Source: Dyadobacter jejuensis (GTDB lineage: Bacteria > Bacteroidota > Bacteroidia > Cytophagales > Spirosomataceae). From it: DNA of 64,000 nt. Where the stretch lies: contig NZ_QGDT01000004.1 in NCBI RefSeq assembly GCF_003149085.1, forward strand, positions 434,001 to 498,000. The letters are read 5' to 3'. Position numbers and translations under genes: made by a program. How positions within the stretch are numbered: the stretch's first letter is position 1; every line of letters starts with the position of its first letter. The notes under the pieces were generated by a model that had not been told where the DNA came from, searched no databases, and saw nothing but the letters and a program-made list of their open reading frames with translations. Shown piece by piece: positions 33,208 through 54,198 of this stretch.

Positions 33208-34263
33208 ATGATTTATATTGAGGATATGGGGTGTATCTCTCCCAACCATGTTGACGGAGAGTCCTTCGAAAATGCTATTCCCAACTTACAGGTGGGGGGA
33301 CGATTTATAGCCCAGGAGCCTGCCTATACTGGGCTTATCCCTTCGGGGCAGTTGCGCCGCATGGGCAAGTCGGTGCGTATGGGTGTGGGAATGGGCCTTA
33401 CTTTGCAACAGCGTAATGAGCCCGTAGAAGCGGTGATATTGGCTACCGCCAATGGTGGACTCGACGATTGTCTGAAGTTTCTCAATCAGATCGTCGAGTA
33501 CAAAGAGGGGACGCTAACGCCTACCAATTTTGTACAGAGCACCCCCAATGCGGTAGCGGGTAACCTGGCCCTGATTACTCAAACTACCGGCTATAATATT
33601 ACCCACGTCCACGAAGGGATCGCCTTCGAGAATGCCATACTAGATGCCCTCATGCGATTCGACGCAGGGGACAATAGCCGGTTGCTATTAGGGGCCGTCG
33701 ATGAGATATCGGATTATAATTATAATATAGATCTGCTCAGAGGTGGCTTCAAGACGGAAGCAGTATCGGCAGAGGATATGCTGGAGAGCGGTACTCCAGG
33801 TACGGTAGCGGGTGAGGGCACTGCCTGGTTCGTACTAGCCGCCGAGGCTACAGAGCGCGCTAAGGCGGCTATTATGGATGTAGAGGCGACCTGCTACTTG
33901 CCTGAAGCCGATTTGCTAGCGTGGGTAGACGCATTTCTTCAAAAAAACAACCTGTTGCCCACCCAGATCGATGCCCTCGTGTTTGGTAATAATGGCGATA
34001 TAAGAACCGATGGACTGTATACCAAAGTATATGAGCAACGCTTCCCTCAGCTCCCTTTGTATGTGTATAAAAACAGGGTAGGGGAGTATCCTACCTCGTC
34101 GTCCTATGCCTGCTGGCTAGCCACGCAGCTGTTGATAGGCTGCAAGCTTCCTACCCCTTGGCTGAATAGGGGCCGTGCCGCCGAAGCGTCGCCTAAGTAT
34201 GTATTGGTGTACAACCATTATCTGGGATGTCAACATGGGTTACAACTACTGCAATCGGTCTGA
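33208..34263 (+). CDS. ketosynthase-like (chain-length-factor-type) protein without active-site Cys
   Basis: 351 residues with a ketosynthase-like thiolase fold in its N-terminal part: PTNFVQSTPNAVAGNLALITQ resembles the strand-helix before the nucleophile of FabF enzymes. At the position of the catalytic Cys the chain reads THVHEGIAFENAILDAL, with no Cys, and the two catalytic His motifs are absent. Its best relative in the window is the product of 50256-51206. Such proteins in aryl polyene/flexirubin loci are annotated as ketoacyl-synthase-like or chain-length-factor-like partners. It starts 15 nt after glpD; its 3' end overlaps the convergent oxidoreductase by 18 nt. Confidence 0.75.
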   Translation: MIYIEDMGCISPNHVDGESFENAIPNLQVGGRFIAQEPAYTGLIPSGQLRRMGKSVRMGVGMGLTLQQRNEPVEAVILATANGGLDDCLKFLNQIVEYKEGTLTPTNFVQSTPNAVAGNLALITQTTGYNITHVHEGIAFENAILDALMRFDAGDNSRLLLGAVDEISDYNYNIDLLRGGFKTEAVSAEDMLESGTPGTVAGEGTAWFVLAAEATERAKAAIMDVEATCYLPEADLLAWVDAFLQKNNLLPTQIDALVFGNNGDIRTDGLYTKVYEQRFPQLPLYVYKNRVGEYPTSSSYACWLATQLLIGCKLPTPWLNRGRAAEASPKYVLVYNHYLGCQHGLQLLQSV

Positions 34264-35517
34264 GGGCTTAGGGCTATTGGAGGGGTCGGGCATCCTTTCT
34301 TTGATGCGGATAACCTTGGCCAAGGTGGCTAAAATGGTGTCATGTTTTTTGACGAAGGGGTTGGATTGATCCCAAACGTAGCCAGCCAAAACCGAACATA
34401 TTTGTTGTTTAAAGCCCTGGTCAATTTCTTTAGCAAAAACGATGGTCTGGAAGTCTCCGTTATACCAACCCGTCACGTAGCTTCTAAAAACATCGATACC
34501 ATCCTGAATCACCTCTTCGTAGTCCTTTTGCCAGTCGACGTTTTCTCCTTGCAGCTGGCGGTGGGTGAGCTTAGCGGCTCTAAGACCCGATGAGGTAGCG
34601 AAGGTAACTCCCGATGAGAAGATGGGATCCAAGAACTCCGTACTATTGCCAGCTAACACGAAGCCAGGCCCCCACATACGCGTTACCCCTACCGAATAGC
34701 CTAGAATAGCCTTGGGTTCAAATACCATATCGACATCGGAAAAACGCCCTTGAAGGTCGGGGAAGTTACGAATAATGGACCAATACCCGGTTCCTTGATC
34801 GGCTGACAGGGAACGGATGTACTCCTGTTCACTCACAATGCCTACCGAGGTGGTGCCGTCGGAGAAAGGAATGGCCCATAGCCAGGCTTCATTGTCGTTA
34901 AATGCATGAACGAAAATATTTTGGCTCTCGGCCGTAGACCTGTGGGGGTCTTGTAGATGTGAAAATATAGCTCCCCTGGGCACAAAAGACGAAGGGCGAC
35001 TCAGGTTGAATAGGCGGGGAAGTACCCTTCCATAGCCACTGGCATCGATCACAAACTGGGCCTCCAAGTCAATAAGTTGGTTGTCGGGGTTGCGGTATTG
35101 GATGTGCTGCCTTTTTTCGCTGCAGCTAACGGTCTCCACGGAGCAGTTGAACAACAGTTGTACACCCTTTCTTTCCGTTTCTAGGGCCAGGGCCAGGTCG
35201 AAGTCGGCCCTTTTTACCTGCCAGGTCCAGCTCCAGCCATTGGTATATTGTTCAGTAAAATAAAACTCGCAACGCTGAGATCCCCGCATAAAGGCGGCCC
35301 CAGTTTTTTTTTGAAAATCGAGTTTTTTTATGGCTTCTAACAATCCAGCTTCTTGTAGATGCTCCATGCAACAGGGAAGTAAGCTCTCCCCAATTTGAAA
35401 TCGCGGAAATGTTTCCTTTTCTAAAATAGTGACCCTGTAGCCTTTGCCGGCCAAATAGGAAGCCGCTACCGTACCGGCGGGTCCTGCCCCTATGACTAGA
35501 ACATCTATTTCTTGCAT
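34246..35517 (-). CDS. FAD-dependent oxidoreductase of the flavin-dependent halogenase family
   Basis: 423 residues. FAD-binding GAGPAGTVAASYLAGKG is at about 10-26, then FPRFQIGESLLP, a substrate-proximal FQKKTGAAFMRG that may carry the halogenase lysine, WLWAIPF at about 212-218, which fits the halogenase signature WxWxIP, and the second FAD motif GPGFVLAGNSTEFLDPIFSSG. The family either chlorinates aromatic substrates or oxidises them. Flexirubins with a modified or chlorinated aryl ring are known, so ring tailoring is a likely role (inference). Downstream of the CrtI-like gene with a 2-nt gap; last gene of the minus-strand unit. Confidence 0.8.
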   Translation of the reverse strand: MQEIDVLVIGAGPAGTVAASYLAGKGYRVTILEKETFPRFQIGESLLPCCMEHLQEAGLLEAIKKLDFQKKTGAAFMRGSQRCEFYFTEQYTNGWSWTWQVKRADFDLALALETERKGVQLLFNCSVETVSCSEKRQHIQYRNPDNQLIDLEAQFVIDASGYGRVLPRLFNLSRPSSFVPRGAIFSHLQDPHRSTAESQNIFVHAFNDNEAWLWAIPFSDGTTSVGIVSEQEYIRSLSADQGTGYWSIIRNFPDLQGRFSDVDMVFEPKAILGYSVGVTRMWGPGFVLAGNSTEFLDPIFSSGVTFATSSGLRAAKLTHRQLQGENVDWQKDYEEVIQDGIDVFRSYVTGWYNGDFQTIVFAKEIDQGFKQQICSVLAGYVWDQSNPFVKKHDTILATLAKVIRIKERMPDPSNSPKPSDRLQ

Positions 35518-35519
35518 GA

Positions 35520-37049
35520 TTAAGCTTGTTTTACTTGATCAATGAGTTTTTCCTTATTTATAAATGAAAAGCAAGTGACGAAGGCGCTTGCCGTGACACC
35601 CAATATCCCGTGCATAGATATATTTTGACCTGTCAGGTGCAGATTAGGAATTTTTGTCCTGGTGTTAATCTGCGTTCGACTGGGGTTAAGGGCACTTTTG
35701 CGGATCCCATATAGGCTGCCATCCTTGTTGCCAAGGTAGTCCCTAAAGGTAAGAGGGGTGGCACTATGAATCGATTTTATCTTACTCCTAATACCAGGGA
35801 AAACGGTTTCCAAATGTCGAAGCACCCGTTCTTCTTTTTCAATTTTAAACTCTTGATAGCCTGCTCCCCGCTCTCCCGATTCGGCCACAGTCCTAAAGGA
35901 CTCCTGCCATCTGCTGGTTTCCTCGGTTTTCATATAGGTCATTACCGTCATGGAATCGGCGTATTCAGGATCCTTTCGCGACATAGGTGTGCATATGAAA
36001 TAACTCTCAGGCCAAAGGTCCTGCTGAGGCTCAGTGGCTTGCCATACATCGTCCTGATGATGCTGATAAATATTATAATTGAGGTACGGAAAGGAGCGTT
36101 TCTCAAAGGCTATATGTACTAAAAAGGTAGAAATGCTATTTTCCAAATTGCGGATGCGGTTTTTGTACATCTTCAGGAAGCGTTCTTCGCCAAAAATGTC
36201 GATGGTGTTGGAAGGGTGAACGTTAGAGATGAAGTTCTTTCCCCTTACTTCCTGTCCATCTTTGAGCTTGACGGCCCTAATACATCCATTGCTATGGTAA
36301 GAAGCACCAACAGCCTCCTTCCGCTTACAAATCACGCCCCCCATTTCCCTTATACGTCTACTGAGTAAGATGGCAATTTGGGAGCCTCCATCTATTAATT
36401 TGTAGGCGCCACAGAGGTAGCTGTTCATAATGAGGGCATGCACATAAAAGGGGGTGGTGTCCCTATAGCCAGCATACAACAGGTTGGAGCCCGCCAATAC
36501 ATTGCGGAGGCGTGGGTTTTCGGTCAGGCCCGCAATATAGTCGTGGGCATTTAGCTGGAGTAGCTCTTCGTTGAACTGATAGTTGGCGCCATCGGCCCTC
36601 AGGTTATACAAAGGAAAATGCAGACAAACCTCTTTGATCTTCTCACAGTACTTGGTAATGGCCTCCTTTTCCTGAGGAAAATAGCCTATAAGCTTTTCCT
36701 GGAATCGATCATGTCCTTGGGCATATTCATAGGTACTTCCATCGGCAAACCGTATCACGTCAAATTTTTCTTGATCGAGTCGGTGCAGCTTTAATTCGTC
36801 TAGGATATTGAAATATTTGAAAAACTGGTATAGGTTTTCCCCAGGATCCATGCTTCCAATATAATGCACCCCAGTGTCAAAGATAGACTTGTCGCGGCTG
36901 TATACCTGCAGGTTCCCGCCTATTTGATGGTTCTTTTCTAACACGATTACAGACTTCCCCTCTTTGGCGAGTAGGTAAGCGCAGCCTAACCCTCCCAAGC
37001 CACTCCCCACTATGACGAAGTCATACTCTTTTGATAAAGATTCTTCCAT
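35520..37049 (-). CDS. CrtI/phytoene-desaturase-like FAD oxidoreductase
   Basis: 509 residues from ATG 37049 (an upstream TTG at 37058 is also in frame). N-terminal dinucleotide-binding motif DFVIVGSGLGGLGCAYLLAKEGK, followed by GGNLQVYSRDKSIFDTGVHYIG as in the carotenoid desaturase/isomerase group, and a C-terminal FAD-binding segment LHLTGQNISMHGILGVTASA. Relatives act on long conjugated or isoprenoid chains as desaturases, isomerases or saturases. The pigment locus contains no carotenoid genes, so the likely substrate is the polyene or its precursor (inference). It is 84 nt downstream of the large fusion gene and 2 nt before the halogenase-like gene. Confidence 0.8.
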   Translation of the reverse strand: MEESLSKEYDFVIVGSGLGGLGCAYLLAKEGKSVIVLEKNHQIGGNLQVYSRDKSIFDTGVHYIGSMDPGENLYQFFKYFNILDELKLHRLDQEKFDVIRFADGSTYEYAQGHDRFQEKLIGYFPQEKEAITKYCEKIKEVCLHFPLYNLRADGANYQFNEELLQLNAHDYIAGLTENPRLRNVLAGSNLLYAGYRDTTPFYVHALIMNSYLCGAYKLIDGGSQIAILLSRRIREMGGVICKRKEAVGASYHSNGCIRAVKLKDGQEVRGKNFISNVHPSNTIDIFGEERFLKMYKNRIRNLENSISTFLVHIAFEKRSFPYLNYNIYQHHQDDVWQATEPQQDLWPESYFICTPMSRKDPEYADSMTVMTYMKTEETSRWQESFRTVAESGERGAGYQEFKIEKEERVLRHLETVFPGIRSKIKSIHSATPLTFRDYLGNKDGSLYGIRKSALNPSRTQINTRTKIPNLHLTGQNISMHGILGVTASAFVTCFSFINKEKLIDQVKQA

Positions 37050-37142: not shown

Positions 37143-40100
37143 TTAGTAACTGGTACGTTTCAATACGAAAAGTACATTGGAAGTAGTCTTGGAATGGGCT
37201 TCCATACTGGCTGCCATACCATGGCTACTGGCAAAGTCCTTAATGACTTGAGAATGGAAAAAATGGAATTCGTCACTTTTTTTGTTAAATCCAAATAATC
37301 CCGTCGAGAGCTGTTCCGTACGGCTGGTGTTTTTGTGCCGATCGGCCTGGTCGGTGATACCATCTCTGATGATGAGCAGGCCATCGAGGCTGAGGGCCTG
37401 GTGGCAACGCTCCAAAAGAATCCGTTGCTTATCGGCCGATAGGTAGTGAAGGACATCATTCAAAAAAATGACATCGCGTTGTCCCAAGTCGAAATGCATG
37501 ATATCGGCTTCGGCAAATTGCAACTGGTCCGTCTTGTTATAAGCATTCAGAGCGGTACTGATCTTCCCGGCGTCGTAGTCCAGGCCCAAAATTGTACGGG
37601 TAGGGTCTTTGTAATGCAAATAAAATGATAAGTAACCGTATCCACAGCCAATATCTAAAATCTGCCGTCTGTCTCCGATTAAGGAGTTGTAATAGCTGAA
37701 GTTTTTCTCCTCCAGCTTCCATTTTACCTTAAAGTACCATTCCAGAACTGGCCCTTTAAATACATAATTACTGAATATCCTGGGTTTAAGATAGGTAGTT
37801 GTTTCCTTTTCTTGGGCGTACAATTGGTGTGCTTCCTTAAAAAACTGTGAAGCGTTCTTCGTTTTATCTCGTAAAGAGCTACCCCACTGAGACTCCTGCA
37901 GATGAATAGGCGGTAACACCTTTACGTTTAAGGTGCCAGAGCGAATCAGAAAATCGTTTTTGGGTAAAACCTCCGATGCCCCGTGAATAAGGATGGGTTG
38001 AATGGGGATGTTCAGCTCTGTTGCCAAATGAAAGGCGCCCTTGTGGAAACGCCCCATGGCTCCGTTGCTAGAACGTGTACCTTCCGGAAATATGAGAATG
38101 GAATACCCGTCCTCTATCAGAGCCCTGGCCTGTTGTAAGTTTTTTTCGGGCCCGTTGTCGGAGTAGAGGTATCCAGCATATCGAATGATGGGGCCAAAAA
38201 AGGGTGATTTATAAACCCATCCTTTCACCATCAGAACGAGCCTGGGGTTGATCATGATGGTGAGCAGTATGTCCAGAAAGGAACTGTGGTTGGCAATAAA
38301 CAGGACGGGTCTCTGCGGATCGATTTCTTGCAGCCCCTCTAAGTTTTTTCGCACATGGGGACCAGAATATATTACCGTTTTAGCATAAAATGACAAGGCC
38401 TGGTTCATTAGTCTACGCTTCTTTTTCTTGCTGATGGGAAGCAATAGTATGGTGACCAAATGAGAATGTAAAATCAGACACCCGACCACAAAATAACAGA
38501 AGCTATTCACGCTGATCAGAAAGGGTAAAAAGGTGATGGGGGGCTTCTTTTTTTCGATTCGGTCCTGGACAAACAGTCGGAATAAGGCGGGCTGTACGAT
38601 AAAGGACATGAACAGGATGCAACCGATACCCAGCATACTGATGAGCGCTATGGAGTGAATGGCGGGGTGCTTGGCCAGTATCAGGCAGCCGGTACCGATC
38701 AATGTGGTGAATCCCGACAGCCATATGGCGCTTTTATAGGACTGTAGGCTGTTGCGCCGGTGGTGGTACTTTTGTAAAAGTCCGTCGGTAACAAAGATAC
38801 TAAAGTCGTCGCCGAGGCCAAAGATAAACGTAGTTACGACCACATTCACGAAGTTGAAGGGAATATGCAGCAAGGAGGCTATGCCCAGGATCCATATCCA
38901 GCTGATCACCATAGGGAAAAAGGTAAGCAGAGCCAGCTCGATGCGCCCATATACCAGCAGTAAAGTGATGAACACAATGGATGCCGAAAGGGCTAGCAAG
39001 TAGTTGAAGTCGTCTTTTACCATGGCCACGAGGTCTTCGGCTAGTTCGGCCCGGTCAAAAACGGTGACTCCCGCCAGGTTCCGTAGCTCTTGTTTGATGA
39101 ATGGCAGATTTTGGTTTTCGACGACAATGGGCGTGATGTAAGTCGTTTTTCCCGCCTGCTTGTCTACCAGATTGTCTAGGCCTAGTTGCACCAAAATAGA
39201 ATCGTGCTGGATCCGCGTTGCTGGCTTATCGATCCAGTTTTTAAAATCTTGAAAGGCTTCTGCTTGAAATCCGACTTGGCTGGAGCTCCGGTCTATTTGT
39301 CGGAATAGTTGTTCTTTTCTAGCTGAGTTCCAAAAGTTATTCCAACGCTGCGCTCGGCGGTTTTGAATGCTATCGGGTATCATGAACGCCCCAGCCGAAA
39401 GGAAGCTGCTGATGATGGCACTATCCTTGAGCGCCGAAAGTCTCCGATAGGCCCTATAGTTGGCTTCGGCAGCCTGCTGTGGGTCTGAGCTGGTGGCAAA
39501 CAGATAAATTCTTTTTTCTTTTTCCGGGTTCAGGCCTGTCAATTGATTTTCCCGAACTTGTAGGTCGGCATCTTGGATGCTCAGGTTATCAAAGTGACCA
39601 TCGAACTCGATGTGGCGCGCATGATAAAGAAAGAATAGGGTCCCCAGAAAAAGGAGTCCCAAGGTAGGGACAGGGCGTAGCTTGGGGAGCCATAAGGGCT
39701 GCGTAGCCTGCTTTCGTTCGGGCCAATCGATATCGACAACCGATACCACTATGGGCAGGACTATTAGGGTAAACAGGGCGGCCCCAAAGAGCCCCAAGGC
39801 GGCAAAGAGGCCAAAATCCTGAAGTACGATAGAATTGGCGAAAAGTAAGGCTCCAAAGGCCATAAGGGTGGTGAAGCTCCCTGTGAGCAAGGGGGCGCTG
39901 ATGTCGCGCAGGACTTGGGGTATGGATCTTTCGTGGCGGTAATGCGTAAAGAAGTGGATGGCGTAGTCGAGTAATATCCCGAAAATGACGGCCCCGGTAG
40001 CCAAGGAGATACCCGAAATATTGGGCTTGATAAAACCGATGACCCCGAGCGCAAACATAGCGCCAAAAATACCTGGTAAGGTGAGCAATAGGGGGATAGA

Positions 40101-40964
40101 TCTTATTCGATAGTAACCAAAAAGCAGGATAAGAATGAGTATCACCGAGAGAATGGCCGTTACGGTCGTGTCGGTTTTGACTTGGCTAGCGTTGCGTGCC
40201 GAAATCTCAAAGGTGCCAAAGTAAGATAAGGTGTGCTGGGGATGGTTGGCCTTCCAGTTTTTAGAAAATTCCTGTAGGTATTGGTGAAGGACTAGGTCCT
40301 GCTGGGAGTTTCCCGATTCGTAAGCAGTGGTGGCTGTCAGCAAGATCTGCCGCCTGTCGGCGGTCAGCATCACCCCATCTTCCACAATCACCTGGCCAGA
40401 ATTATTGGTTTTATTGAGGGCTTGGTAGTAGCTCGCGCCAATTCCCAAGGGGTCGTTAATCATGAATGTTTTAACAAAATCGCCTCCTGGAGCCAATAGT
40501 TGATTTTTGACCCCCTGTAGGGCATTATATACGGTATCTTCCTGTATTTTGTCGACTATGCCGCTGTAATAGGCGCTGTCGATGAGTAGTGGGAAATTTG
40601 TTTGTGTAAAGTTATAGACGCTTTCCTGTGCTTCTGGTCGAGTGGTCCGTATATTTGCCAATAAGGTACACTGGCTCAGAGAATCGGCTAACTCGGTCAG
40701 TAGGGCCTCAGCCTCGTAAAGGTCCGAATTGGGCTCCCATTCTAAAGAAAATACAATTTGATTGATGAAATGCTTTGTTTGTACTAGCTGGTTGAACTCC
40801 TGAAACGCCTGGCCTTTAGGGAGTGTTTCAAAAATACTTTCGGTGACACGAAGGCGTGTCATTCCCCAGCCTAATACTCCCAAAAGCAACGAAAGGCCTA
40901 GGAAAAATGAGAGTCTGTTTTGGGATAATACTTTATTTAACTTTACGAAGAGTTCTCCAAGCAT
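37143..40964 (-). CDS. three-domain fusion: MMPL/RND transporter + lysophospholipid acyltransferase + SAM methyltransferase
   Basis: 1273 residues. Residues 1 to about 830 form an MMPL/RND exporter: TM1 near 18-36, two large periplasmic loops (about 40-260 and 440-660) and two bundles of TM helices. A PlsC-type acyltransferase follows with NHSSFLD (HX4D) at about 890 and FPEGTRSS at about 961. The C-terminal methyltransferase has the SAM motif ILDIGCGYGYLSF at about 1104 and FLNDVLHYL as the post-II region. Such trifunctional proteins are a hallmark of flexirubin loci: transport, acyl transfer (joining polyene and resorcinol or lipid) and O-methylation. It is the first gene of a three-gene minus-strand unit with a near-perfect promoter at 40990-41020. 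Confidence 0.9.
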   Translation of the reverse strand: MLGELFVKLNKVLSQNRLSFFLGLSLLLGVLGWGMTRLRVTESIFETLPKGQAFQEFNQLVQTKHFINQIVFSLEWEPNSDLYEAEALLTELADSLSQCTLLANIRTTRPEAQESVYNFTQTNFPLLIDSAYYSGIVDKIQEDTVYNALQGVKNQLLAPGGDFVKTFMINDPLGIGASYYQALNKTNNSGQVIVEDGVMLTADRRQILLTATTAYESGNSQQDLVLHQYLQEFSKNWKANHPQHTLSYFGTFEISARNASQVKTDTTVTAILSVILILILLFGYYRIRSIPLLLTLPGIFGAMFALGVIGFIKPNISGISLATGAVIFGILLDYAIHFFTHYRHERSIPQVLRDISAPLLTGSFTTLMAFGALLFANSIVLQDFGLFAALGLFGAALFTLIVLPIVVSVVDIDWPERKQATQPLWLPKLRPVPTLGLLFLGTLFFLYHARHIEFDGHFDNLSIQDADLQVRENQLTGLNPEKEKRIYLFATSSDPQQAAEANYRAYRRLSALKDSAIISSFLSAGAFMIPDSIQNRRAQRWNNFWNSARKEQLFRQIDRSSSQVGFQAEAFQDFKNWIDKPATRIQHDSILVQLGLDNLVDKQAGKTTYITPIVVENQNLPFIKQELRNLAGVTVFDRAELAEDLVAMVKDDFNYLLALSASIVFITLLLVYGRIELALLTFFPMVISWIWILGIASLLHIPFNFVNVVVTTFIFGLGDDFSIFVTDGLLQKYHHRRNSLQSYKSAIWLSGFTTLIGTGCLILAKHPAIHSIALISMLGIGCILFMSFIVQPALFRLFVQDRIEKKKPPITFLPFLISVNSFCYFVVGCLILHSHLVTILLLPISKKKKRRLMNQALSFYAKTVIYSGPHVRKNLEGLQEIDPQRPVLFIANHSSFLDILLTIMINPRLVLMVKGWVYKSPFFGPIIRYAGYLYSDNGPEKNLQQARALIEDGYSILIFPEGTRSSNGAMGRFHKGAFHLATELNIPIQPILIHGASEVLPKNDFLIRSGTLNVKVLPPIHLQESQWGSSLRDKTKNASQFFKEAHQLYAQEKETTTYLKPRIFSNYVFKGPVLEWYFKVKWKLEEKNFSYYNSLIGDRRQILDIGCGYGYLSFYLHYKDPTRTILGLDYDAGKISTALNAYNKTDQLQFAEADIMHFDLGQRDVIFLNDVLHYLSADKQRILLERCHQALSLDGLLIIRDGITDQADRHKNTSRTEQLSTGLFGFNKKSDEFHFFHSQVIKDFASSHGMAASMEAHSKTTSNVLFVLKRTSY

Positions 40965-44589: not shown

Positions 44590-44663
44590 GTAAGACGTCG
44601 TAGTTCAGAGCCAATGTATGAGATAAATGAGTAAACGGTTTAAAGAATCGGGGTGAAATGTAG

Positions 44664-44671
44664 TATTTTTG
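44664..44671 (+). promoter_or_regulatory. possible internal promoter element before the ACP gene
   Basis: TATTTTTG is a perfect TAnnTTTG -7 match in the 210-nt gap between the ketosynthase and ACP genes; a matching TTG is not clear. An internal promoter could raise ACP output. Confidence 0.3.
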
Positions 44672-44799
44672 CTATTTGTTTGATTGGCAAAGGAGCGAAT
44701 CAGGCTAGAAATTAACTTTTCCGAGGATTGTAATACAATAATCCGTAAAAGTTAATGTGGGATAGAAACTATTAGTAAGAATAAATTAATTTTACAGCC

Positions 44800-45066: not shown

Positions 45067-45069
45067 GGC

Positions 45070-46351: not shown

Positions 46352-46444
46352 CTGCTTAGAAAGGTTTTTTTAAAGCGAAATAATAGGCGTACTTAGAAAA
46401 AATGCCTATTCTTGTTTACCTCTTACGTTTTATAGAACTTTACG

Positions 46445-46858
46445 ATGCTTTCTTCCGAGATAGAAATTGATATACGCTTTAGTGAAACCGACGCCATGGG
46501 TGTTGTATGGCATGGGAATTATTTGAAATTTTTTGAAGATGGCCGAGAGGCTTTTGGAAAAGAATATGGTCTTGAATACCTCACCATATTTGATAAAGGT
46601 TATTTTACTCCTATCGTCAAGTCGGAGATAGAGCATAAGGCTCCGGTATATTACGGCCAAAAAATACGAGTGATCACACAATACCTACCCGCTAAATCGG
46701 CCAAAGTGCTTTTTTCCTATGAGGTGATCAATATTACAACCGGGCAAATATGCGCCATCGGTAGTACCATGCAAGTATTCTTGGACAAAAATACCAGGGA
46801 GTTGGAACTGCTAACCCCCGATTTTTACAGAGATTGGAAATTAAAGCATTTGTCCTAA
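46445..46858 (+). CDS. acyl-CoA/ACP thioesterase (4HBT/YbgC-like hotdog)
   Basis: 137 residues. The 4-hydroxybenzoyl-CoA thioesterase signature FSETDAMGVVWHGNYLKFFEDGREAF contains the catalytic Asp (DAMG) and the HGNY segment. It hydrolyses acyl thioesters; here it may release or edit polyene intermediates from the carrier (inference). It lies 93 nt after the dehydratase-like gene and 18 nt before the next ketosynthase gene. Confidence 0.87.
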   Translation: MLSSEIEIDIRFSETDAMGVVWHGNYLKFFEDGREAFGKEYGLEYLTIFDKGYFTPIVKSEIEHKAPVYYGQKIRVITQYLPAKSAKVLFSYEVINITTGQICAIGSTMQVFLDKNTRELELLTPDFYRDWKLKHLS

Positions 46859-46876
46859 AACCACCTACCGATATCC

Positions 46877-47959
46877 ATGATTTATATAGGCGCTGAAACG
46901 ATGATTAGCCCTTTGGGGTCGACCACAGAGGAAAACTGGTCGGCTTTGAAAGAAAACCGTTCGGGAATTTCCTGGGTGGCAGGTGCCGGCCTGCACCACC
47001 AGGGCTTGTTTTTGGCACGGTTTCATCCCATCGAGAAAGACCGACGCTTTACGAGCCTATTATATGAAGGGATGCAGCAGGTAGCGTTGAAACTGGACCC
47101 CTCCATCATGCTGAGTGCCCGTACTCAAGTAGTGGTAAGTGCTACCAAAGGAGCAGTGGATACCGATATTCGCGATCCCTTTGGAGGCGTTTTTAATAAG
47201 TTTAAAACTCATTTTGGACTGGCTCATCAGCCTATAGTCGTCTCGAATGCCTGCATATCAGGGGTTCAGGCGATCAATTTTGGAGATGAATTGGTCGGTG
47301 CCGGCCAGTTTGACCAGGTGATCGTCATCGGGGTCGATCTGATAACCGACTTTGTCGTTAATGGGTTTCAGTCCTTATATGCCGTTAGTGACAAGCCTTG
47401 TCGGCCTTTCGATGCCGCCCGAAAGGGCATCACCCTGGGGGAGGGCTGTGCCGCCGTAGTGGTGGGTAACGACCGCAGTATTTTTGCCGAAGCACCTTTG
47501 GAGCTGTTAGCAGGGAGCTCGTCTAACGATGCCAACCATATCTCGGGTCCCTCGCGTACCGGAGAAGGGCTGGTGCGGGCCGTACGACGCACCCTAATGC
47601 GCCAAGGTTGCCAGCCCGAGGATATCGACCTAGTGTCGGCCCATGGCACTGCTACCCTCTATAACGACGAAATGGAGGCCATTGCCTTTAACCGATTGGG
47701 GCTTCAGGAGTGCCCTACGCTGAGTCTTAAAGGTTACTTTGGCCATACCCTAGGCTGCGCCGGGGTGTTAGAAACGGCCGCCACCATGCAAATGATGCGC
47801 CACGGACTGATGGTTCGTAGCGAAGGCTTCGAAAACCTGGGTACCTCTAAGCCGTTACCTATCCTCACCGAAAACTGTAAAGGACCCATTAACACTTTTA
47901 TCAAAACGGCCTCTGGATTCGGAGGGGGGAATGCCGCCTTAATCGTTCGGAAATTATGA
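46877..47959 (+). CDS. beta-ketoacyl synthase, short form with intact triad
   Basis: 360 residues, about 45 shorter than FabF. The triad is intact: NACISGVQAINFG near 126, SAHGTATLYNDEMEA near 256, and YFGHTLGCAGVLE near 285. C-terminal ASGFGGGNAALIV matches the family. It may prefer a special chain length or starter. It overlaps the following ketosynthase-like gene by 4 nt. Confidence 0.87.
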   Translation: MIYIGAETMISPLGSTTEENWSALKENRSGISWVAGAGLHHQGLFLARFHPIEKDRRFTSLLYEGMQQVALKLDPSIMLSARTQVVVSATKGAVDTDIRDPFGGVFNKFKTHFGLAHQPIVVSNACISGVQAINFGDELVGAGQFDQVIVIGVDLITDFVVNGFQSLYAVSDKPCRPFDAARKGITLGEGCAAVVVGNDRSIFAEAPLELLAGSSSNDANHISGPSRTGEGLVRAVRRTLMRQGCQPEDIDLVSAHGTATLYNDEMEAIAFNRLGLQECPTLSLKGYFGHTLGCAGVLETAATMQMMRHGLMVRSEGFENLGTSKPLPILTENCKGPINTFIKTASGFGGGNAALIVRKL

Positions 47960-48594
47960 CTGTTATAAAGGGTTATTGCCATATAAATAAAGAAGACTGT
48001 TGGGTGAACGGAAAGCCGGTTCTTGCCAAAACAGACGATCCGGAGTATTCCTGGCTTCGTCAGATCTACAATTTCGTAGGGCTTAGCTATCCCAAATTCC
48101 ATAAAATGGATCAGCTCGCACAGGCCGGAGTGTTGGCCTTGGCACTTTTGAAGCATGAAGGGGACTTGCCCATGGACTATTCCGAGGAAGGGGTCGACTT
48201 GGTGCTGGCCAACCGCCATGCTAGTGCCGGTTCCGATCTGCGTTTTCAGGCCAGCTATGCCGACCATGCCGCCCCTAGTCCAGCATTATTCGTGTATACC
48301 CTTCCCAATATTGTGTTGGGAGAAATAGCCATTCAGCAGAAGTGGTATGGGGATCATATCTTTGTGGTTCTTCCAGCCTTCGATCCCGATTTCTTTATCC
48401 AATATGCCCAGCGCCATATTCAGCAAGGATGCCAGGCCGTAATAGGAGGGTGGCTGGAAGTAACCGATACGGAAACCGATGTGTTTTTGTTCCTTGCCGA
48501 AGCCGAGGAATCGACGGGTAAAGGGGGATCCCTTCCTTTGGCCGCCATAAATGAACTTTACCGGCAGCCTATGCCTTCAATATCGAAATTATAA
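47956..48594 (+). CDS. short ketosynthase-like protein (half-domain), function unknown
   Basis: 212 residues. The central APSPALFVYTLPNIVLGEIAI resembles the strand-turn-helix SPxxFVxTLPN...GEI found in ketosynthase-like partners, but there is no triad and the length is only half a thiolase fold. Commonly annotated as 3-oxoacyl-ACP synthase in flexirubin loci. Start overlaps the upstream ketosynthase stop by 4 nt; the ACP gene starts 10 nt after its stop. A structural or chain-length partner is a reasonable guess. Confidence 0.65.
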   Translation: MTVIKGYCHINKEDCWVNGKPVLAKTDDPEYSWLRQIYNFVGLSYPKFHKMDQLAQAGVLALALLKHEGDLPMDYSEEGVDLVLANRHASAGSDLRFQASYADHAAPSPALFVYTLPNIVLGEIAIQQKWYGDHIFVVLPAFDPDFFIQYAQRHIQQGCQAVIGGWLEVTDTETDVFLFLAEAEESTGKGGSLPLAAINELYRQPMPSISKL

Positions 48595-48604
48595 CGTACC
48601 GATC

Positions 48605-48865
48605 ATGGATCAGATAAAACAAGAATTAAAAAAGCAGATTATTGAGCAACTGAATTTGGAGGATGTAGCCGTCGAAGATATCGCCGATGATACCCTGCTA
48701 TTCGCTTCTGATGGACTGGCATTGGACTCTATCGATGCGCTGGAGCTCATCGTGCTTCTGGAGAAGTTCTATGGAATACAGGTTGTCAATCCCGAAGAAG
48801 GCAAGACGGCCTTTAAGTCAGTAGATACTATGGCCGCCTATATTCAGCAGAAAACCGCCCAGTAA
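48605..48865 (+). CDS. acyl carrier protein (second)
   Basis: 86 residues from ATG 48605 (the frame is open upstream to 48551, inside the preceding gene, but the ACP fold starts MDQIKQELKK). The phosphopantetheine serine lies in GLALDSIDALELIVLLEKF near residue 41. The sequence differs clearly from the ACP at 44800, suggesting division of labour. It is 5 nt before the next ketosynthase gene. Confidence 0.92.
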   Translation: MDQIKQELKKQIIEQLNLEDVAVEDIADDTLLFASDGLALDSIDALELIVLLEKFYGIQVVNPEEGKTAFKSVDTMAAYIQQKTAQ

Positions 48866-48870
48866 CTTTC

Positions 48871-50070
48871 ATGGTACCAGCAGCGAAAATTAGTATTACA
48901 GGATTAGGGATCGTGTCGGCCATAGGCTGCGGAGTGGAAGAAAACCGCCGGGCTTTGGTGGAAGGCCAAAGTGGTATAGGGACGACCTATTCCGAAACCC
49001 TTCCTGAAGGCCTTTTGGTGGGGGCGGTAAAGCAAAGCGATCAGGAGTTGCTACAGCGCCTCCGCTTACCCAATGGCTACTATTCGCGCACCAGTCTCTT
49101 AGGGATGGTGGCCGCCAGAGAAGCCTGGGATGGGCAGTCGTCTCATCCTTCCTTGCGTACAGGCTTTATTGGGGCTACTTCGGTAGGAGGGATGGACCAG
49201 ACGGAGCAGTTTTATAAGCAGTATCTTCAGGGGCGTAAGGTGGACTTCAAAAGCCTCATTACCCATGATAGCGGTTATACGATGGAGGTCATAGCCCAGG
49301 ACTTAGGCCTTACGGGCTATGTTAACACCATTTCCACGGCTTGTTCCTCTAGTGCCAATGCCATTATGCTAGGTGCACGACTCCTGCAGCAGGGCCGTCT
49401 CGACCGGGTGCTGGTAGGAGGGGTCGACCCGCTGTCGATGTTTACGATCCAGGGCTTTAGGTCGTTAATGATCTACGATGAGGCCTGGTGTAAGCCCTTC
49501 GACGACGCGCGTGTAGGCTTGAATTTGGGAGAAGGCGCGGCATTTATGGTACTCGAAAATGAAAAAAGTATTGAAATTACGGGCCGATTACCCATTTGTA
49601 GGCTGACAGGCTGGGCCAATGCTGCCGATGCTTATCATCAAACGGCCTCATCTCCCGATGGGAAGGGTGCCACTCTGGCCATTGGCCAAGCGTTGCAAAA
49701 GGCTGGACTATTCCCAGAGGAGGTGAGCTATATCAATGTACATGGTACTGGTACCAAGAATAACGACCTGTCGGAGTCGATAGCGATGCAAAATATCTTT
49801 GGCGATAAGTTGCCTCCTTTTAGTTCTACCAAGGCTTATACGGGCCATACCCTGGCCGCCGCCGCCGCCATAGAAGGCGTTTATTCGGTATTGGCCCTAA
49901 GGGACGGGATGCTGTTGCCGAACCTCAATTTCAGCACGCCATTGGCCGAGACAGGGCTGTCTCCAATCGTTGAACTGCAAACCGGCCAGGATTTGACATC
50001 GGTGCTTTCCAATTCCTTTGGCTTTGGGGGTAATAATTCTTCCTTGGTATTCTCTAGTAATGGGTATTGA
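48871..50070 (+). CDS. beta-ketoacyl-ACP synthase (FabF-like), third active copy
   Basis: 399 residues. Active-site Cys in STACSSSANAIMLG near 157, His in NVHGTGTKNNDLSES near 292 and His in AYTGHTLAAAAAIEG near 326; C-terminal NSFGFGGNNSSLVF. With 43372 and 46877 it makes three condensing enzymes with complete triads. A 185-nt gap follows before the 50256 gene. Confidence 0.92.
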   Translation: MVPAAKISITGLGIVSAIGCGVEENRRALVEGQSGIGTTYSETLPEGLLVGAVKQSDQELLQRLRLPNGYYSRTSLLGMVAAREAWDGQSSHPSLRTGFIGATSVGGMDQTEQFYKQYLQGRKVDFKSLITHDSGYTMEVIAQDLGLTGYVNTISTACSSSANAIMLGARLLQQGRLDRVLVGGVDPLSMFTIQGFRSLMIYDEAWCKPFDDARVGLNLGEGAAFMVLENEKSIEITGRLPICRLTGWANAADAYHQTASSPDGKGATLAIGQALQKAGLFPEEVSYINVHGTGTKNNDLSESIAMQNIFGDKLPPFSSTKAYTGHTLAAAAAIEGVYSVLALRDGMLLPNLNFSTPLAETGLSPIVELQTGQDLTSVLSNSFGFGGNNSSLVFSSNGY

Positions 50071-50255
50071 GCGGCTTGAGGAGACTATTTATAGTTAAAA
50101 AGAACAAAAAGATAATTTTGGAGGAAGGAGACAATCAAAAACATCACTAATTTTGATAGAGGCGAAGGAGACACCTTTCATGGCTTAAGGAAGGTGAATT
50201 CGGGGATTTTAGTCTATAAAAAGAAAGCCATGAACCAGAATAAATCTAGGATACT

Positions 50256-51206
50256 GTGCATTATATAAAGGCCGCTTCATCAATAACCCACCAGCCCAGT
50301 TTTCAGCAAAAGGGATTTGCGGCCGATCTTTCGCCGCTGTCTGTTGCTGGGGAGGTCATTGCTCCCAATTATAAGGAATATATTGAAGGAGCCCTGCTGC
50401 GGCGCATGGGCAAGATACTTCGTATGTCTGTAGCAGCAGCCAAGGACGTGATCCTACAGGCCGACGCTGGCCAGCCCAACAGCATAGTAGTGGGTACTGG
50501 TTTGGGGTGCCTATTGGAAACGGAGAAATTTTTGACAAATACATTAACCTTGACGGGAATGCTACCTCCAACGGCGTTTATCCAGTCGACGCATAATACG
50601 ATCGCCGGCCAAATATCGCTTATTTTGGAGAACCACGGGTATAACATGACCCATACTCAAAATACCCTGTCATTCGAACATGCCCTTATCGACGCCCGCT
50701 TACTGCTCGACGAAGGGCAGGAATTAGTACTGGTGGGAGCGGCCGACGAAAGCATCCCGTTCTTGGAAGAAGTGTCTCGGAACTTGCTTACTGCAAGCCT
50801 GCCCGTGTTGACATCGGGGGCTAGCTTTTTTATGCTAGATACCAGGGTGGCCGAGGCCACTGTGGCTATTATCGATGTAAAGGTTCACTTTGGAGCAGAA
50901 GACCGAGGAGCTATTGTTTTCGATTTTTTAAAGGAACATGATTTGTCTTATCCAGCTATCGACCTGTTGATGACGCCATTGTCCATGCAGCAGCAGGGTT
51001 TAGACTCCTTTGGCAAGGTTTTTGCAGGTACTCGGCAGCACACCTATCTCGATTATAGTGGTTTGTATCCTTCCGCCTCCGCCTTCGGGTTTCATATGGC
51101 CATAGATATGATGCAGATGGATCGTCGGATAGGGTATACATTGATCATCAACAATTTAAGCGCTAACAGTCTGGGGCTTATACTACTCAAAAATTGTGAA
51201 GCATAA
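50256..51206 (+). CDS. ketosynthase-like (chain-length-factor-type) protein without active-site Cys
   Basis: 316 residues, paralogue of the product of 33208-34263: both share a RRMGK motif near residue 50, then PPTAFIQSTHNTIAGQISLI and GYNMTHTQNTLSFEHALIDAR, where the nucleophile Cys would lie but is absent. The catalytic His motifs are missing too. The likely role is a ketosynthase partner that sets chain length, by analogy to chain-length factors of type II systems (inference). The start shown reads from GTG or ATG near 50256; the polysaccharide deacetylase gene overlaps its end by 11 nt. Confidence 0.75.
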   Translation: MHYIKAASSITHQPSFQQKGFAADLSPLSVAGEVIAPNYKEYIEGALLRRMGKILRMSVAAAKDVILQADAGQPNSIVVGTGLGCLLETEKFLTNTLTLTGMLPPTAFIQSTHNTIAGQISLILENHGYNMTHTQNTLSFEHALIDARLLLDEGQELVLVGAADESIPFLEEVSRNLLTASLPVLTSGASFFMLDTRVAEATVAIIDVKVHFGAEDRGAIVFDFLKEHDLSYPAIDLLMTPLSMQQQGLDSFGKVFAGTRQHTYLDYSGLYPSASAFGFHMAIDMMQMDRRIGYTLIINNLSANSLGLILLKNCEA

Positions 51207-51963
51207 TATATTTACCTTTCTATTTGCAGCCACATTGGTTGTCTTAGGATTTGTCTTTTGGCAGTCGGAATTCCTGTATTATATCCTCGCGGCGGTGATT
51301 GTCGCCTATGTGGCGCTGACCGTCTATGGAGTTTTTAATATTGAGGCCAATTATTTCCTGAGCTCCATTCATAAAGGAAAAGGGAGTTCCGTGACGTTGA
51401 CCTTCGACGATGGTCCCGACCCGGAGCAGACGCCCCGAATACTGGCTGCCCTCAAAGAACAGGAAGTGAAGGCTACCTTTTTCGTTATTGGTAAAAAAGC
51501 CGAGCAGCATCCCGAACTGATTAGGCAGATGGTGGACGAAGGTCATATAGTGGCCAACCATTCTTATAGTCATCATTATCTGATAGGCTTTTTTTCTAGA
51601 AAACGCCTGCGTGCCGATCTGGAACGGTGCAATGCGGTAATAGAGCAGATAACCGGCAAGGTACCGCATTATTTTAGACCCCCCTTCGGGGTCACCAACC
51701 CCCGCTATGCCGATGTGCTCCAGGATATGGGGATGCTCTCGATAGGCTGGTCGCTAAGGAGCCTCGACACTCAGGCCAAAAATAAATATGCGTTGATAGA
51801 ACGGATATTGGTCAAGATCAAAAAGAAGGACATCATTTTGCTACATGACGACAGGGCGGTGACGGCCGATGCCATTGACGATATTGTAGCGCATTGCGAA
51901 CAGAAAAAAATAGCGATAGAAACCCTAGACTGGGTTACCAAAACTTCCCCTTATGTATCTTAA
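51196..51963 (+). CDS. polysaccharide deacetylase family protein (NodB fold), membrane-anchored
   Basis: 255 residues, GTG start at 51196. Two N-terminal hydrophobic segments (about 4-45) anchor a NodB domain: metal/catalytic Asp in TLTFDDGPDPEQTP near 72, HxxxH in VANHSYSHHYL near 118, and RPPFGVTNPRYADVL. It removes N-acetyl or related acyl groups from polymers in the periplasm. Its place in the pigment unit (11-nt overlap before, 11-nt overlap after) suggests work on a pigment-linked or envelope substrate. Confidence 0.88.
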   Translation: MKHNIFTFLFAATLVVLGFVFWQSEFLYYILAAVIVAYVALTVYGVFNIEANYFLSSIHKGKGSSVTLTFDDGPDPEQTPRILAALKEQEVKATFFVIGKKAEQHPELIRQMVDEGHIVANHSYSHHYLIGFFSRKRLRADLERCNAVIEQITGKVPHYFRPPFGVTNPRYADVLQDMGMLSIGWSLRSLDTQAKNKYALIERILVKIKKKDIILLHDDRAVTADAIDDIVAHCEQKKIAIETLDWVTKTSPYVS

Positions 51964-52579
51964 GCAGATCTGGATCTTTGGCTTGTTATTGCTGTGCCTG
52001 CCCAGCTGGGCACAACAATACAAGCCTGCTCAAAACCCTCAGCAATTGGTGGCTTTCCTAAAAGCTTCGGCACAAAAGACCAATACCATCGAGGCTAAGT
52101 TTACCGAGGAAAAACAAATAGCCCTTCTAAAGGGAACGCAGAAGTCTAGCGGTGTATTTTATTTTAAAAAGAAGGATCGTATGCGCTGGGAGCAACGAAG
52201 CCCTACCAGCTACACGATCTTGATCAATGGGGATAGGGTGAAAATTAAAGATGGTACCAAACAGAAATCGATGGAAGGAGGGCGGATGGCACAGCAAATT
52301 CGTTCGCTAATCCTGGGATTGATCAATGGGGATTTTACTGAAGACAAGGGGTTTGACAAGACCTATTTGGAGAATTCTACCAACTATTTGGTAAAGCTTT
52401 TCCCTAAAAATAAACGCCTAAAGTCAGTTTACAAGGAAATTTCTCTGCTCTTTAACAAAAAAACAGGTATTTTAGAGGGATTAACCTTTCTAGAAAGTCG
52501 AGGAGATAGCAGAGAAATGAAATTTTATGACCAACATACGAACAGACCCGTGGAGGAACGGCTTTTTAACGACTTTTAA
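51953..52579 (+). CDS. LolA-like outer-membrane lipoprotein carrier protein
   Basis: 208 residues. Signal peptide (IWIFGLLLLCLPSWAQ) and a LolA-type half-barrel: TIEAKFTEEKQIALLKG, SGVFYFKKKDRMRWEQRSP, YTILINGDRVKI. LolA proteins ferry lipidated molecules across the periplasm. In this locus it probably carries the pigment from the MMPL exporter to the outer membrane (inference). It overlaps the deacetylase gene by 11 nt. Confidence 0.87.
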   Translation: MYLKQIWIFGLLLLCLPSWAQQYKPAQNPQQLVAFLKASAQKTNTIEAKFTEEKQIALLKGTQKSSGVFYFKKKDRMRWEQRSPTSYTILINGDRVKIKDGTKQKSMEGGRMAQQIRSLILGLINGDFTEDKGFDKTYLENSTNYLVKLFPKNKRLKSVYKEISLLFNKKTGILEGLTFLESRGDSREMKFYDQHTNRPVEERLFNDF

Positions 52580-52628
52580 GGGGTGCTGTTAGCGCCTACG
52601 GACCATGTTTCTATAAACACAATACACC

Positions 52629-52991
52629 ATGAATACCCTGTTAAATCACCTATATAGTATCGAAAACCTAGCGGGAACGGATACCTCTCTTACTGCGAGC
52701 ATAAGGCTCAATGCCGATCATGCGGTGTATCTGGGCCACTTTCCTGGTAACCCCATTACGCCCGGGGTGGTGCAGATGGACTTTGTCAAAGAAGCATTGC
52801 AACAACAGCTCGGCAGAAAGCTTCGAATGAAATCGATGAAAACCTGTAAGTTTTTGCAAATTGTAAATCCCACTGAGACACCGGTTTTAAACCTGGAAAT
52901 CAACTTTAACGATGGCGAATTTTTGGAAGTTTCTGCTGCCGGCGTCTATGGTGAAACGGTTTATTTCAAAATGCAATCGTCGTACGTTTAG
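52629..52991 (+). CDS. FabZ/FabA-like 3-hydroxyacyl-ACP dehydratase
   Basis: 120 residues. The hotdog signature GHFPGNPITPGVVQMDFVKEAL keeps the catalytic His (in HFPGNP); 14 residues later the acidic partner is Asp (MDFV) where FabZ has Glu, the pairing used by FabA. It should dehydrate beta-hydroxyacyl-ACP to the trans-enoyl chain. It lies 49 nt after the LolA-like gene and before the glycosyltransferase gene. Confidence 0.85.
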   Translation: MNTLLNHLYSIENLAGTDTSLTASIRLNADHAVYLGHFPGNPITPGVVQMDFVKEALQQQLGRKLRMKSMKTCKFLQIVNPTETPVLNLEINFNDGEFLEVSAAGVYGETVYFKMQSSYV

Positions 52992-53040
52992 GATCCGTGC
53001 TGCAGTCCTATTTTAAATGCCCTAATTATTACTCCTACCC

Positions 53041-54198
53041 ATGAGCCTCAAGGATATCAGGTGCTGTGTGTTGATCCCTACTTATAACAACCAGCTTACG
53101 CTACTTCGGGTACTCGATGGAGTGCTTCAGCATGCCGACCATGCGGAGGTAATCGTGGTCAACGATGGTTCCACGGACCGTACCTTGGCCCTATTAGAAG
53201 GGCTCCACCCCGACATCACGATTCTACATCATGAGGTCAATAAGGGCAAGGGCAGGGCGCTACGCCTGGGCTTCGAGGAGGCTATTCGGCAAGGCTTCGA
53301 TAATGTCATTACCATCGATTCGGATGGGCAGCATATTCCGGACGACATCCCTTTGTTTATTCAAAAAGCCAAGGCCATTCCTGGGGCCTTGGTGATGGGG
53401 GCCCGAAATATGCAGCAGGAGGGGGTTCCAGGCAAGAGCTCGTTCGGCAATAAGTTTTCCAATTTCTGGTTTAAAGTTGAAACAGGCATCACCCTCCCTG
53501 ACACCCAAACGGGCTTTAGGCTGTACCCCCTCAAACCCCTGCAGTCGACAAGGCTCTATACCTCCAAGTTCGAAACCGAAATAGAGGTGATCGTCAAGCT
53601 GGCTTGGAAAGATGTACCAGTGGTGCCGGTCGATATACGTGTTATCTACGATAAGGACGAGCGGGTGTCGCATTTCAGGCCTTTCCGGGACTTTAGCCGG
53701 ATCAGTATTTTGAATACATATCTGGTAACGCTTACTTTACTCTATTATCTGCCCAAAAGGCTCGTAAAGACCGTACTGGAAAAGGGCATTTGGTCCATGA
53801 TTCGTCAAGAGGCCCTTAAGCCCGAGGAGAGTAGCTTCAATAAGGCGATCTCTATCGGCTTCGGCTTTTTTATAGGTATACTGCCCATTTGGGGGTTCCA
53901 GTTATTACTAGGAATTCCACTTTCCATTTACTTCAGGATGAATAAAGTGCTCTTCCTGATTGCCGCCAATATCAGCCTTCCTCCCATGATTCCGCTGATC
54001 ATTTATGGAAGTTACCGCTTCGGGGGGCTATTTTATAAAAATGGCGTCCAGCTCAGCACTTTTCAGGACCTAACCTTGGAATCGATTCATGTTAATTTTC
54101 TTCAATACTTTATAGGGGGCACCGCCCTGGCCATGCTGGCAGGCCTCGCTGGCTTTGTAATTTCCTACGCTAGTTTTAAGCTGTTTAGAAACCGATAA
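53041..54198 (+). CDS. GT2 glycosyltransferase fused to DUF2062
   Basis: 385 residues. GT-A domain at about 1-230: CVLIPTYNNQLTLLRVLDG, VVNDGSTDRTLALLEG, and the metal-binding DSDGQHIPDDIP. The C-terminal DUF2062 membrane domain (about 255-380) begins SSFNKAISIGFGFFIGILPIWGFQLLLG. Members transfer a sugar to polyprenyl phosphate or lipids; here possibly to the pigment or envelope. Last gene of the plus-strand pigment unit. Confidence 0.88.
   Translation: MSLKDIRCCVLIPTYNNQLTLLRVLDGVLQHADHAEVIVVNDGSTDRTLALLEGLHPDITILHHEVNKGKGRALRLGFEEAIRQGFDNVITIDSDGQHIPDDIPLFIQKAKAIPGALVMGARNMQQEGVPGKSSFGNKFSNFWFKVETGITLPDTQTGFRLYPLKPLQSTRLYTSKFETEIEVIVKLAWKDVPVVPVDIRVIYDKDERVSHFRPFRDFSRISILNTYLVTLTLLYYLPKRLVKTVLEKGIWSMIRQEALKPEESSFNKAISIGFGFFIGILPIWGFQLLLGIPLSIYFRMNKVLFLIAANISLPPMIPLIIYGSYRFGGLFYKNGVQLSTFQDLTLESIHVNFLQYFIGGTALAMLAGLAGFVISYASFKLFRNR

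Follow-up and report, generated by a model that had tools for sequence, protein, structure and literature searches.

A locus that very probably encodes the polyene half of the flexirubin pathway in a Dyadobacter genome

Flexirubins are yellow-orange pigments of the outer membrane and are a taxonomic marker of the Bacteroidota. Apart from DarAB and the enzymes of the first two steps, most of the flexirubin enzymes are, to our knowledge, experimentally untested. A starter derived by tyrosine ammonia-lyase (TAL) and a dialkylresorcinol half are not known to be part of plain aryl polyene (APE) clusters. The reactions of FlxA and FlxY have been demonstrated in Chitinophaga pinensis (PMC3992019). 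Dyadobacter has been described as a flexirubin producer, and D. linearis CECT 9623 (locus L044 in this study) is positive for the pigment with potassium hydroxide (KOH) (PMC11573002). A cluster containing darAB has been reported for Dyadobacter sp. HH091 (PMC9606717). Flexirubin in Dyadobacter is already known, and the genes described here are an ordinary set. They lie at 33208-54198 of a 64,000-nucleotide window, which is the whole stretch of DNA that was analyzed (G000:C4:434001-498000; coordinates without a prefix are window positions), in the genome of a Dyadobacter near D. tibetensis.

It appears that this locus is the polyene half of the flexirubin pathway, a reading to which a probability of about 93% is given. 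Three genes in the window passed the cut-offs of flexirubin-specific NCBIfam models, FlxA (797 bits, cut-off 700), FlxB (399 bits, cut-off 340), and LolA2_flexi (155 bits, cut-off 125). Together with FlxY, DarB, DarG, and DarH, which were identified upstream, they point to the flexirubin pathway. The first-pass annotation had proposed a flexirubin/aryl polyene locus, and these genes support that proposal and allow it to be narrowed to flexirubin. The locus is not a product of chance, since all 25 Dyadobacter loci share its gene order over the sequence retrieved and three of its genes are over flexirubin-specific cut-offs. It had also been stated that the gene set defines such clusters. The set does belong to the flexirubin pathway, but the part inside 33208-54198 does not define flexirubin by itself, because the coenzyme A (CoA) ligase and the dialkylresorcinol genes, by which a flexirubin is distinguished from a plain aryl polyene, lie outside. 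The statement that the exact combination is not known was too strong, as the same order is found throughout the genus and nearly the same order on plasmids of Aureispira and Persicobacter.

The genes of the locus are as follows (KS, ketosynthase; KSl, ketosynthase-like protein; ACP, acyl carrier protein).

33208-34263, plus strand: KSl-1, chain-length-factor-like, without the Cys/His triad (PF13723, 44.5 bits)
34246-35517, minus strand: flavin-dependent halogenase-like oxidoreductase (PF04820, 87 bits)
35520-37049, minus strand: CrtI-like flavin adenine dinucleotide (FAD) oxidoreductase (PF13450/PF01593; crtI_fam 83.5 bits, under the cut-off of 238)
37143-40964, minus strand: fusion of MMPL exporter, PlsC acyltransferase, and S-adenosylmethionine-dependent methyltransferase (PF03176, PF01553, PF08242)
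41113-42642, plus strand: FlxA, tyrosine ammonia-lyase, for the starter 4-coumarate (NF053541)
42639-43370, plus strand: FlxB, ketoreductase (NF053542)
43372-44589, plus strand: KS1, FabB/F-like (PF00109/PF02801)
44800-45066, plus strand: ACP1 (PF00550, 32.4 bits)
45070-45942, plus strand: LpxL-like acyltransferase (PF03279, 81 bits)
45935-46351, plus strand: FabZ-like hotdog protein without the HFPG-type histidine motif (NCBIfam FabZ 30.9 bits, under the cut-off of 113)
46445-46858, plus strand: 4HBT thioesterase (PF13279, 68.5 bits)
46877-47959, plus strand: KS2 (PF02801/PF00109)
47956-48594, plus strand: KSl-3, half-size and triad-less (no Pfam or NCBIfam match)
48605-48865, plus strand: ACP2 (NF006617, 71.8 bits, cut-off 70, for the longer reading frame from 48551)
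48871-50070, plus strand: KS3, a paralogue of the KS of the dialkylresorcinol half (PF02801/PF00109)
50256-51206, plus strand: KSl-2, triad-less, with a GTG start (PF13723, 43.9 bits)
51196-51963, plus strand: polysaccharide deacetylase-like protein (PF01522, 136 bits)
51953-52579, plus strand: LolA2, the LolA of flexirubin loci (NF053544)
52629-52991, plus strand: FabA/FabZ/ApeI-like dehydratase with an HFPG...PG...D motif (PF07977, 25.4 bits, cut-off 23)
53041-54198, plus strand: GT2 glycosyltransferase-DUF2062 protein (PF00535, PF09835)

An open reading frame (ORF) reading of 33208-54198 gave 20 genes, all with intact frames. The gene list of the first-pass annotation holds, each named gene being present at its coordinates with an intact frame by Pfam, NCBIfam, and residue checks. 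Its count of about 19 does not, and its own list sums to 20. The functions it gave agree with the Pfam and NCBIfam searches at all but two weak points. The gene at 45935-46351 is seen by the NCBIfam FabZ models alone, below their cut-off, and that at 47956-48594 has no family-model match. From 41113 to 54198, 16 genes follow one another on the plus strand with intergenic gaps of -11 to 210 bases. KSl-1 stands single on the plus strand at 33208, with glpD ending 15 bases before it, and the three genes between KSl-1 and FlxA are on the minus strand. The start of the CrtI-like gene was set at an internal ATG (its ORF opens with TTG at 37058). A scan with a Bacteroidota promoter consensus found a single weak site in the gap between the MMPL and TAL genes, located on the minus strand, and none in seven other gaps; the window held 13 such sites, compared with 6.2 in simple shuffles.

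By family models and residues, the type II set of KS, ACP, ketoreductase, and dehydratase needed for a polyene is complete in the window. FlxA carries the Ala-Ser-Gly of the methylidene-imidazolone (MIO) group at residues 135-137 and is the single PF00221 match in the genome. The catalytic Cys, His, and His are present in 32 of 32 aligned sequences for KS1 and in 30 of 30 for KS2. For KS3, Cys and the first His are in 30 of 30 and the second His in 29, the remaining row being gapped there; each alignment includes the window protein. Two ACPs had been named, and both have the serine of a DSL/DSI motif (LDSLD in ACP1 and LDSID in ACP2, each in 30 of 30 aligned sequences). The second most likely starts at an internal ATG, 48605, and not at 48551. 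The hotdog protein at 45935-46351, whose motif status was read off the translation, is probably a non-catalytic dehydratase subunit. The dehydratase at 52629-52991 also matched the ApeI-like PF22818, at 24.4 bits, under the cut-off of 28.5. A relative of the MMPL-PlsC-methyltransferase fusion covering at least 70% of its length is present in 31 of 33 loci, and the same domains are in a single gene on the Persicobacter plasmid.

The second half of the pathway is present on the same contig beyond the window, at 35-47 kb upstream of the locus (the 14 kb adjoining the window, L006, and the end of L061). Neither a CoA ligase nor a dar gene turned up in the part of the window that was read. The genes of this dar half are as follows.

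C4:418542-420230 (L061:14542-16230): C45-family autoproteolytic acyltransferase (NF040521, 234 bits, cut-off 85)
C4:420254-421516: FlxY, 4-coumarate-CoA ligase (NF053551, 602 bits, cut-off 520)
listed after FlxY: DUF218 protein
dar half: FlxJ-family methyltransferase (454 bits, under the cut-off of 560)
directly before darB: DarA-like gene (no family-model match)
C4:425568-426710: DarB, the dialkylresorcinol-forming KSIII (NF053539, 612 bits, cut-off 550)
dar half: DarG (185 bits, cut-off 170)
dar half: DarH (457 bits, cut-off 300)
dar half: ABC transporter, ACP, and KS

A gene for a 4'-phosphopantetheinyl transferase is divergent from the dar half and adjoins it. The gene for the C45 acyltransferase ends 23 bases ahead of FlxY; all seven Dyadobacter regions fetched have it, two of them being cut by the end of the stretch. 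DarB and FlxA are 48 kb apart in this genome. Nine genes between the halves were scanned and six were named, dnaA (1464-2891), recA (6894-7958), pheT, a Na/H exchanger, a PBP2-type transpeptidase, and a RodA/FtsW-type protein. A genome search with PF00501 for the missing ligase passed over FlxY, which gives 50.5 bits with that model when scanned directly. Two of its matches were rejected as the ligase. That on C3 adjoins a MenB-like gene and is probably MenE from the translations, and that on C6 is of the long-chain type by reading; PF00501 matches are also present on C1 and at C4:70462. A KSIII-type match at C3:512967 was rejected as DarB, being by reading a type III polyketide synthase (PKS) in a carotenoid neighborhood. 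This neighborhood (L007:98-8927 of G000:C3:506001-520000) contains a MerR-type regulator, CrtI, CrtB, IDI, CrtZ, and a lycopene-cyclase-like protein. It adjoins the type III PKS, which is accompanied by a methyltransferase, an FAD oxidoreductase, and a UbiA-like protein. By these names, all read from translations, it is a second pigment or lipid locus of the genome.

The locus was followed in relatives by a scan of genome contigs for FlxA, which gave 33 loci, 25 of them from Dyadobacter; the record of the window itself was possibly left out. The best relative is D. tibetensis, at 84%. All 25 Dyadobacter loci have KSl-1 after glpD and follow the gene order of the window over the whole of the sequence retrieved for each. 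Whole genomes were searched for 28 of the 33 (23 Dyadobacter, four metagenome-assembled genomes (MAGs), and Gillisia lutea), leaving aside L022, L034, L035, and L039, which are on short contigs, and L032. FlxA was over its cut-off in 28 of 28. As these genomes were picked for holding a FlxA relative, DarB alone is informative in this set. It was over its cut-off in 26 of 28, comprising all 23 Dyadobacter and three of the four MAGs, with a shorter match in the fourth (G440). FlxA and DarB are about 48 kb apart in three Dyadobacter (D. tibetensis, D. luteus, and CY312), 253 kb and 1.6 Mb apart in D. arcticus and D. luticola, and on separate contigs in the other 18 of the 23, which are draft genomes. 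They are 12-13 kb apart in all four MAGs. The dar half has the same 13 genes, adjoining mutA and dnaA, in seven of seven Dyadobacter fetched, and KSl-1 is in none of these seven. In Dyadobacter the pathway is divided between two loci, one on the glpD side and one on the mutA/dnaA side, an arrangement that has apparently not been described before. A search for one contiguous cluster would miss half of the pathway in this genus.

The order of reactions, the partners, the ester-forming enzyme, the decoration, the transport, and the product itself can be proposed from these genes. FlxA would convert tyrosine to 4-coumarate, which FlxY would activate. KS2 with KSl-3 and KS3 with KSl-2 could extend this starter with malonyl units on ACP1 and ACP2. 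In each round FlxB would reduce and the pair of hotdog proteins would dehydrate, giving an aryl-polyene acid. The dar half (the DarA-like protein, DarB, ACP, KS, and probably KSl-1) could make a dialkylresorcinol from fatty-acid intermediates. The two parts would be joined as an ester by an acyltransferase, for which the LpxL-like protein, the PlsC domain, DarH, and the C45 protein, itself a candidate for this step, can be considered. The methyltransferases and the halogenase-like protein may modify the aryl ring, and transport of intermediates or product to the outer membrane may fall to the MMPL domain, LolA2, and the ABC transporter.

The halogenase-like protein is putatively the enzyme that chlorinates the aryl ring. 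GxGxxG, WxWxIP, and the Lys of FxxKxG, the motifs and catalytic lysine of flavin-dependent halogenases, are invariant in 33 of 33 aligned sequences. It is quite possible, if short of an even chance, that the protein is instead a flavin oxidoreductase of another role and that the pigment is unchlorinated. The best match among solved structures, 3nix (447 bits), presumably from Cytophaga hutchinsonii, is labelled only as a flavoprotein/dehydrogenase, but the next are halogenases (3e1t, 7fco, 8zop, and PltA 5dbj, at 154-143 bits, 5dbj being at 143). The protein is also far under the CmlS cut-off (161 versus 900). The gene is kept in 32 of the 33 loci of this study, none of which is from C. pinensis, the exception (L034) being cut off there, while the flexirubin of C. 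pinensis, C43H54O4, is free of chlorine; chlorinated flexirubins do occur (PMC3992019).

Several observations weigh against a flexirubin pathway. The upstream methyltransferase is under the FlxJ cut-off, and DarA was assigned by its place before DarB (nine of nine regions) and a distant match, a tblastn hit of 28% to a hypothetical gene that neighbors one of KSIII type on a Streptomyces plasmid. LolB2 (NF053540, E <= 0.01) was found in none of 20 Dyadobacter, nor in G. lutea, G073, or G101. For the strain of the window the reading comes from genes, and the pigment data come from its relative D. linearis. DarB was not found in G. lutea at E <= 1e-60. Among 121 sampled genomes of the same family, FlxA was over its cut-off in 15 and DarB in 12, all of them within those 15, so that three (G021, G023, and G052) have FlxA without DarB over cut-off. 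These counts overlap those of the 28 genomes (G064 and G432, for example, have the same coordinates) and were not summed. With G. lutea, these three genomes indicate that FlxA does not imply a resorcinol. Such genomes, and halves that are not adjacent and lie on different contigs in most of the Dyadobacter drafts, speak for a different explanation, in which the locus makes a plain aryl polyene (an APE lipid of the kind known from E. coli or Xenorhabdus), with the upstream dar genes serving a separate, free dialkylresorcinol. However, FlxY, the ligase for the polyene starter, is located in the dar half and ties both halves to one pathway. Moreover, both genes are in every Dyadobacter searched and close together in the MAGs, and the pigment of D. 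linearis is KOH-positive (PMC11573002). With DarB and FlxY found together upstream, a plain aryl polyene is very improbable and was rejected in favor of flexirubin. The aromatic lyase was also rejected as a gene of histidine degradation, with 797 bits for the FlxA model versus 440 for HutH, whose cut-off is 539.

Some relatives can be noted separately. Across 296 sampled Bacteroidota genomes, FlxA was over its cut-off in 25. G021, which is a single contig, G023, and G052 are candidate resorcinol-free relatives. The locus of G. lutea (L043) is similar, with FlxA at 861 bits, and no KS1 counterpart or MMPL fusion was seen in the stretch; perhaps this bacterium makes an aryl polyene without a resorcinol, or there is an assembly gap. 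In D. tibetensis, KS3 and KSl-2 are separated by about 1.5 kb of additional DNA (L013: about 19000-20533). Aureispira anguillae (L063, NZ_AP026868.1) and Persicobacter psychrovividus (L065, NZ_AP025298.1) carry plasmid-borne flexirubin-type loci. Both are nearly in the order of the window from FabG or the lyase to GT2-DUF2062, and both have LolB2 in addition; the Persicobacter plasmid also has a FlxJ-family methyltransferase. On a Pseudoalteromonas plasmid (L064, NZ_CP045419.1), an aryl-polyene-like cluster includes a gene for an aromatic amino acid ammonia-lyase, and a lyase-derived starter may thus exist outside the Bacteroidota.

In Flavobacterium johnsoniae, LolB2 is beside LolA2, and the authors report that both are always found in flexirubin-type loci (PMC11885536). 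In the window, the gap after the LolA2 gene is 49 bases. The Pfam LolB model was a weak test, with E. coli alone positive among 14 controls, and was replaced by the NCBIfam LolB2 model. With that model, the four MAGs gave one match (G438, 18 bits, under the cut-off of 60), and three of 30 genomes or records were over the cut-off, G145 and the Aureispira and Persicobacter plasmids. The Dyadobacter genomes searched appear to be without a detected LolB2, which seems to be undescribed before, although a diverged LolB2 is possible.

Three triad-less ketosynthase-like proteins had been named; the absence of the triad holds, and the ketosynthase fold of the third, KSl-3, comes from its AlphaFold model (24 sequences, pLDDT 86.6), since sequence searches against the PDB returned no ketosynthase. 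The first three Foldseek matches of this model, which supports the fold, are 4ddo (FabF-type), 7f28_C, and 6qsp_B (an ApeO-ApeC entry), with TM by query of 0.51-0.60. VIA gave FabF 1j3n at Z 15.3, with a root-mean-square deviation of 4.5 over 192 residues; neither 6qsp nor 7f28, and no ApeC entry, was among its best 50 rows. KSl-3 may be a chain-length factor like ApeC. Aryl polyene systems with ApeO-ApeC are known to have a chain-length factor of half size (PMC8358021), and from this and the four-base overlap of their genes, KS2 and KSl-3 are likely an ApeO-ApeC-like pair. KSl-2 is probably the partner of KS3. The AlphaFold model of KSl-1 (pLDDT 85.8) has 1tqy_B, the chain-length factor for actinorhodin, as its top Foldseek match (E 1.8e-17), and FabF enzymes rank closely below it.

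KSl-1 seems to belong to the distant dar half. In both of the compact MAG clusters fetched (L059 and L060), its orthologue directly follows the dar KS, with a gap of 3 bases in L059 and overlapping ORFs in L060. The order ACP-KS-KSl in these clusters equals that of ACP2-KS3-KSl-2 in the window. Identity is 43% between the dar KS and KS3 and 49% between the dar ACP and ACP2. One tree was built from 25 ketosynthases and one from 23 KSl proteins, and each splits the dar from the polyene copies at 100/100. The sampling took KS3 from 12 of 29 loci, KSl-1 from seven of 25 Dyadobacter besides the window, and KSl-2 from 11 of 28. KS1 and KS2 are on very long branches of the KS tree. The Gillisia KS falls on the KS3 side of the split; the KSl protein of Gillisia has a long branch and was assigned to no group. 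From gene orders and trees, it appears that a KS-KSl pair was doubled before these lineages parted and that one copy in Dyadobacter was later divided between loci. It is tentatively proposed, at just under even odds, that KSl-1 is the chain-length-factor-like partner of the dar KS, 35 kb away in this genome, and not of a KS of its own locus, the ACP-KS-KSl triplet having long ago been duplicated for polyene and dialkylresorcinol and the resorcinol copy split with both pieces kept. A heterodimer of KSl-1 and the dar KS would be predicted. The annotation beta-ketoacyl synthase chain length factor is carried by three plasmid genes that resemble KSl-1, but two of them follow a KS in polyene-type, not dar, loci and the third follows dapA. 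No description of a split KS/KSl pair was found in the accessible parts of the flexirubin and dialkylresorcinol literature. If the proposal is true, the triad-less partner may help to set the acyl chain given to DarB, and its role could explain the choice of chain length in the dialkylresorcinol.

The comparison across the genus narrows the questions to the pairing of KS and partner, the ester-forming acyltransferase, ring chlorination, and the replacement of LolB2. Among described systems, that of C. pinensis shares the TAL, ketoreductase, five putative ketosynthases, dehydratases, thioesterases, deacetylase, acyltransferase, LolA, glycosyltransferase, exporter, and CoA ligase (PMC3992019, by published description). 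Its genes are likewise in two separate loci, flxA-flxY and darAB apart (PMC3992019, PMC6767994). By that description, however, flxY is in the flx cluster of C. pinensis and the dar genes are alone, whereas in Dyadobacter flxY, a FlxJ-family methyltransferase, an ACP, and a KS are in the dar half and KSl-1 is in the flx half. F. johnsoniae shares LolA2, DarAB, and an aromatic lyase in one pathway (PMC3992019, PMC11885536), but its genes form a single 37 kb cluster with LolB2 beside LolA2, in contrast to the two clusters here, in which LolB2 was not found. APE clusters with ApeO-ApeC share a KS with a half-size neighbor of ketosynthase fold, an ApeI-like dehydratase, two ACPs, an LpxL-like acyltransferase, and an MMPL exporter. 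The dar cluster of Azoarcus BH72 has the order of the dar half here, with darA, darB, a conserved hypothetical gene, a BtrH-like gene, ABC genes, darC (ACP), and darJ (KS), followed by darK (PMC3949708). It differs in two toxin-antitoxin-like genes between the ABC genes and in a polyene starter derived from chorismate. Its hypothetical darK, likened by position only, sits where KSl-1 lies in the compact clusters (PMC3949708).

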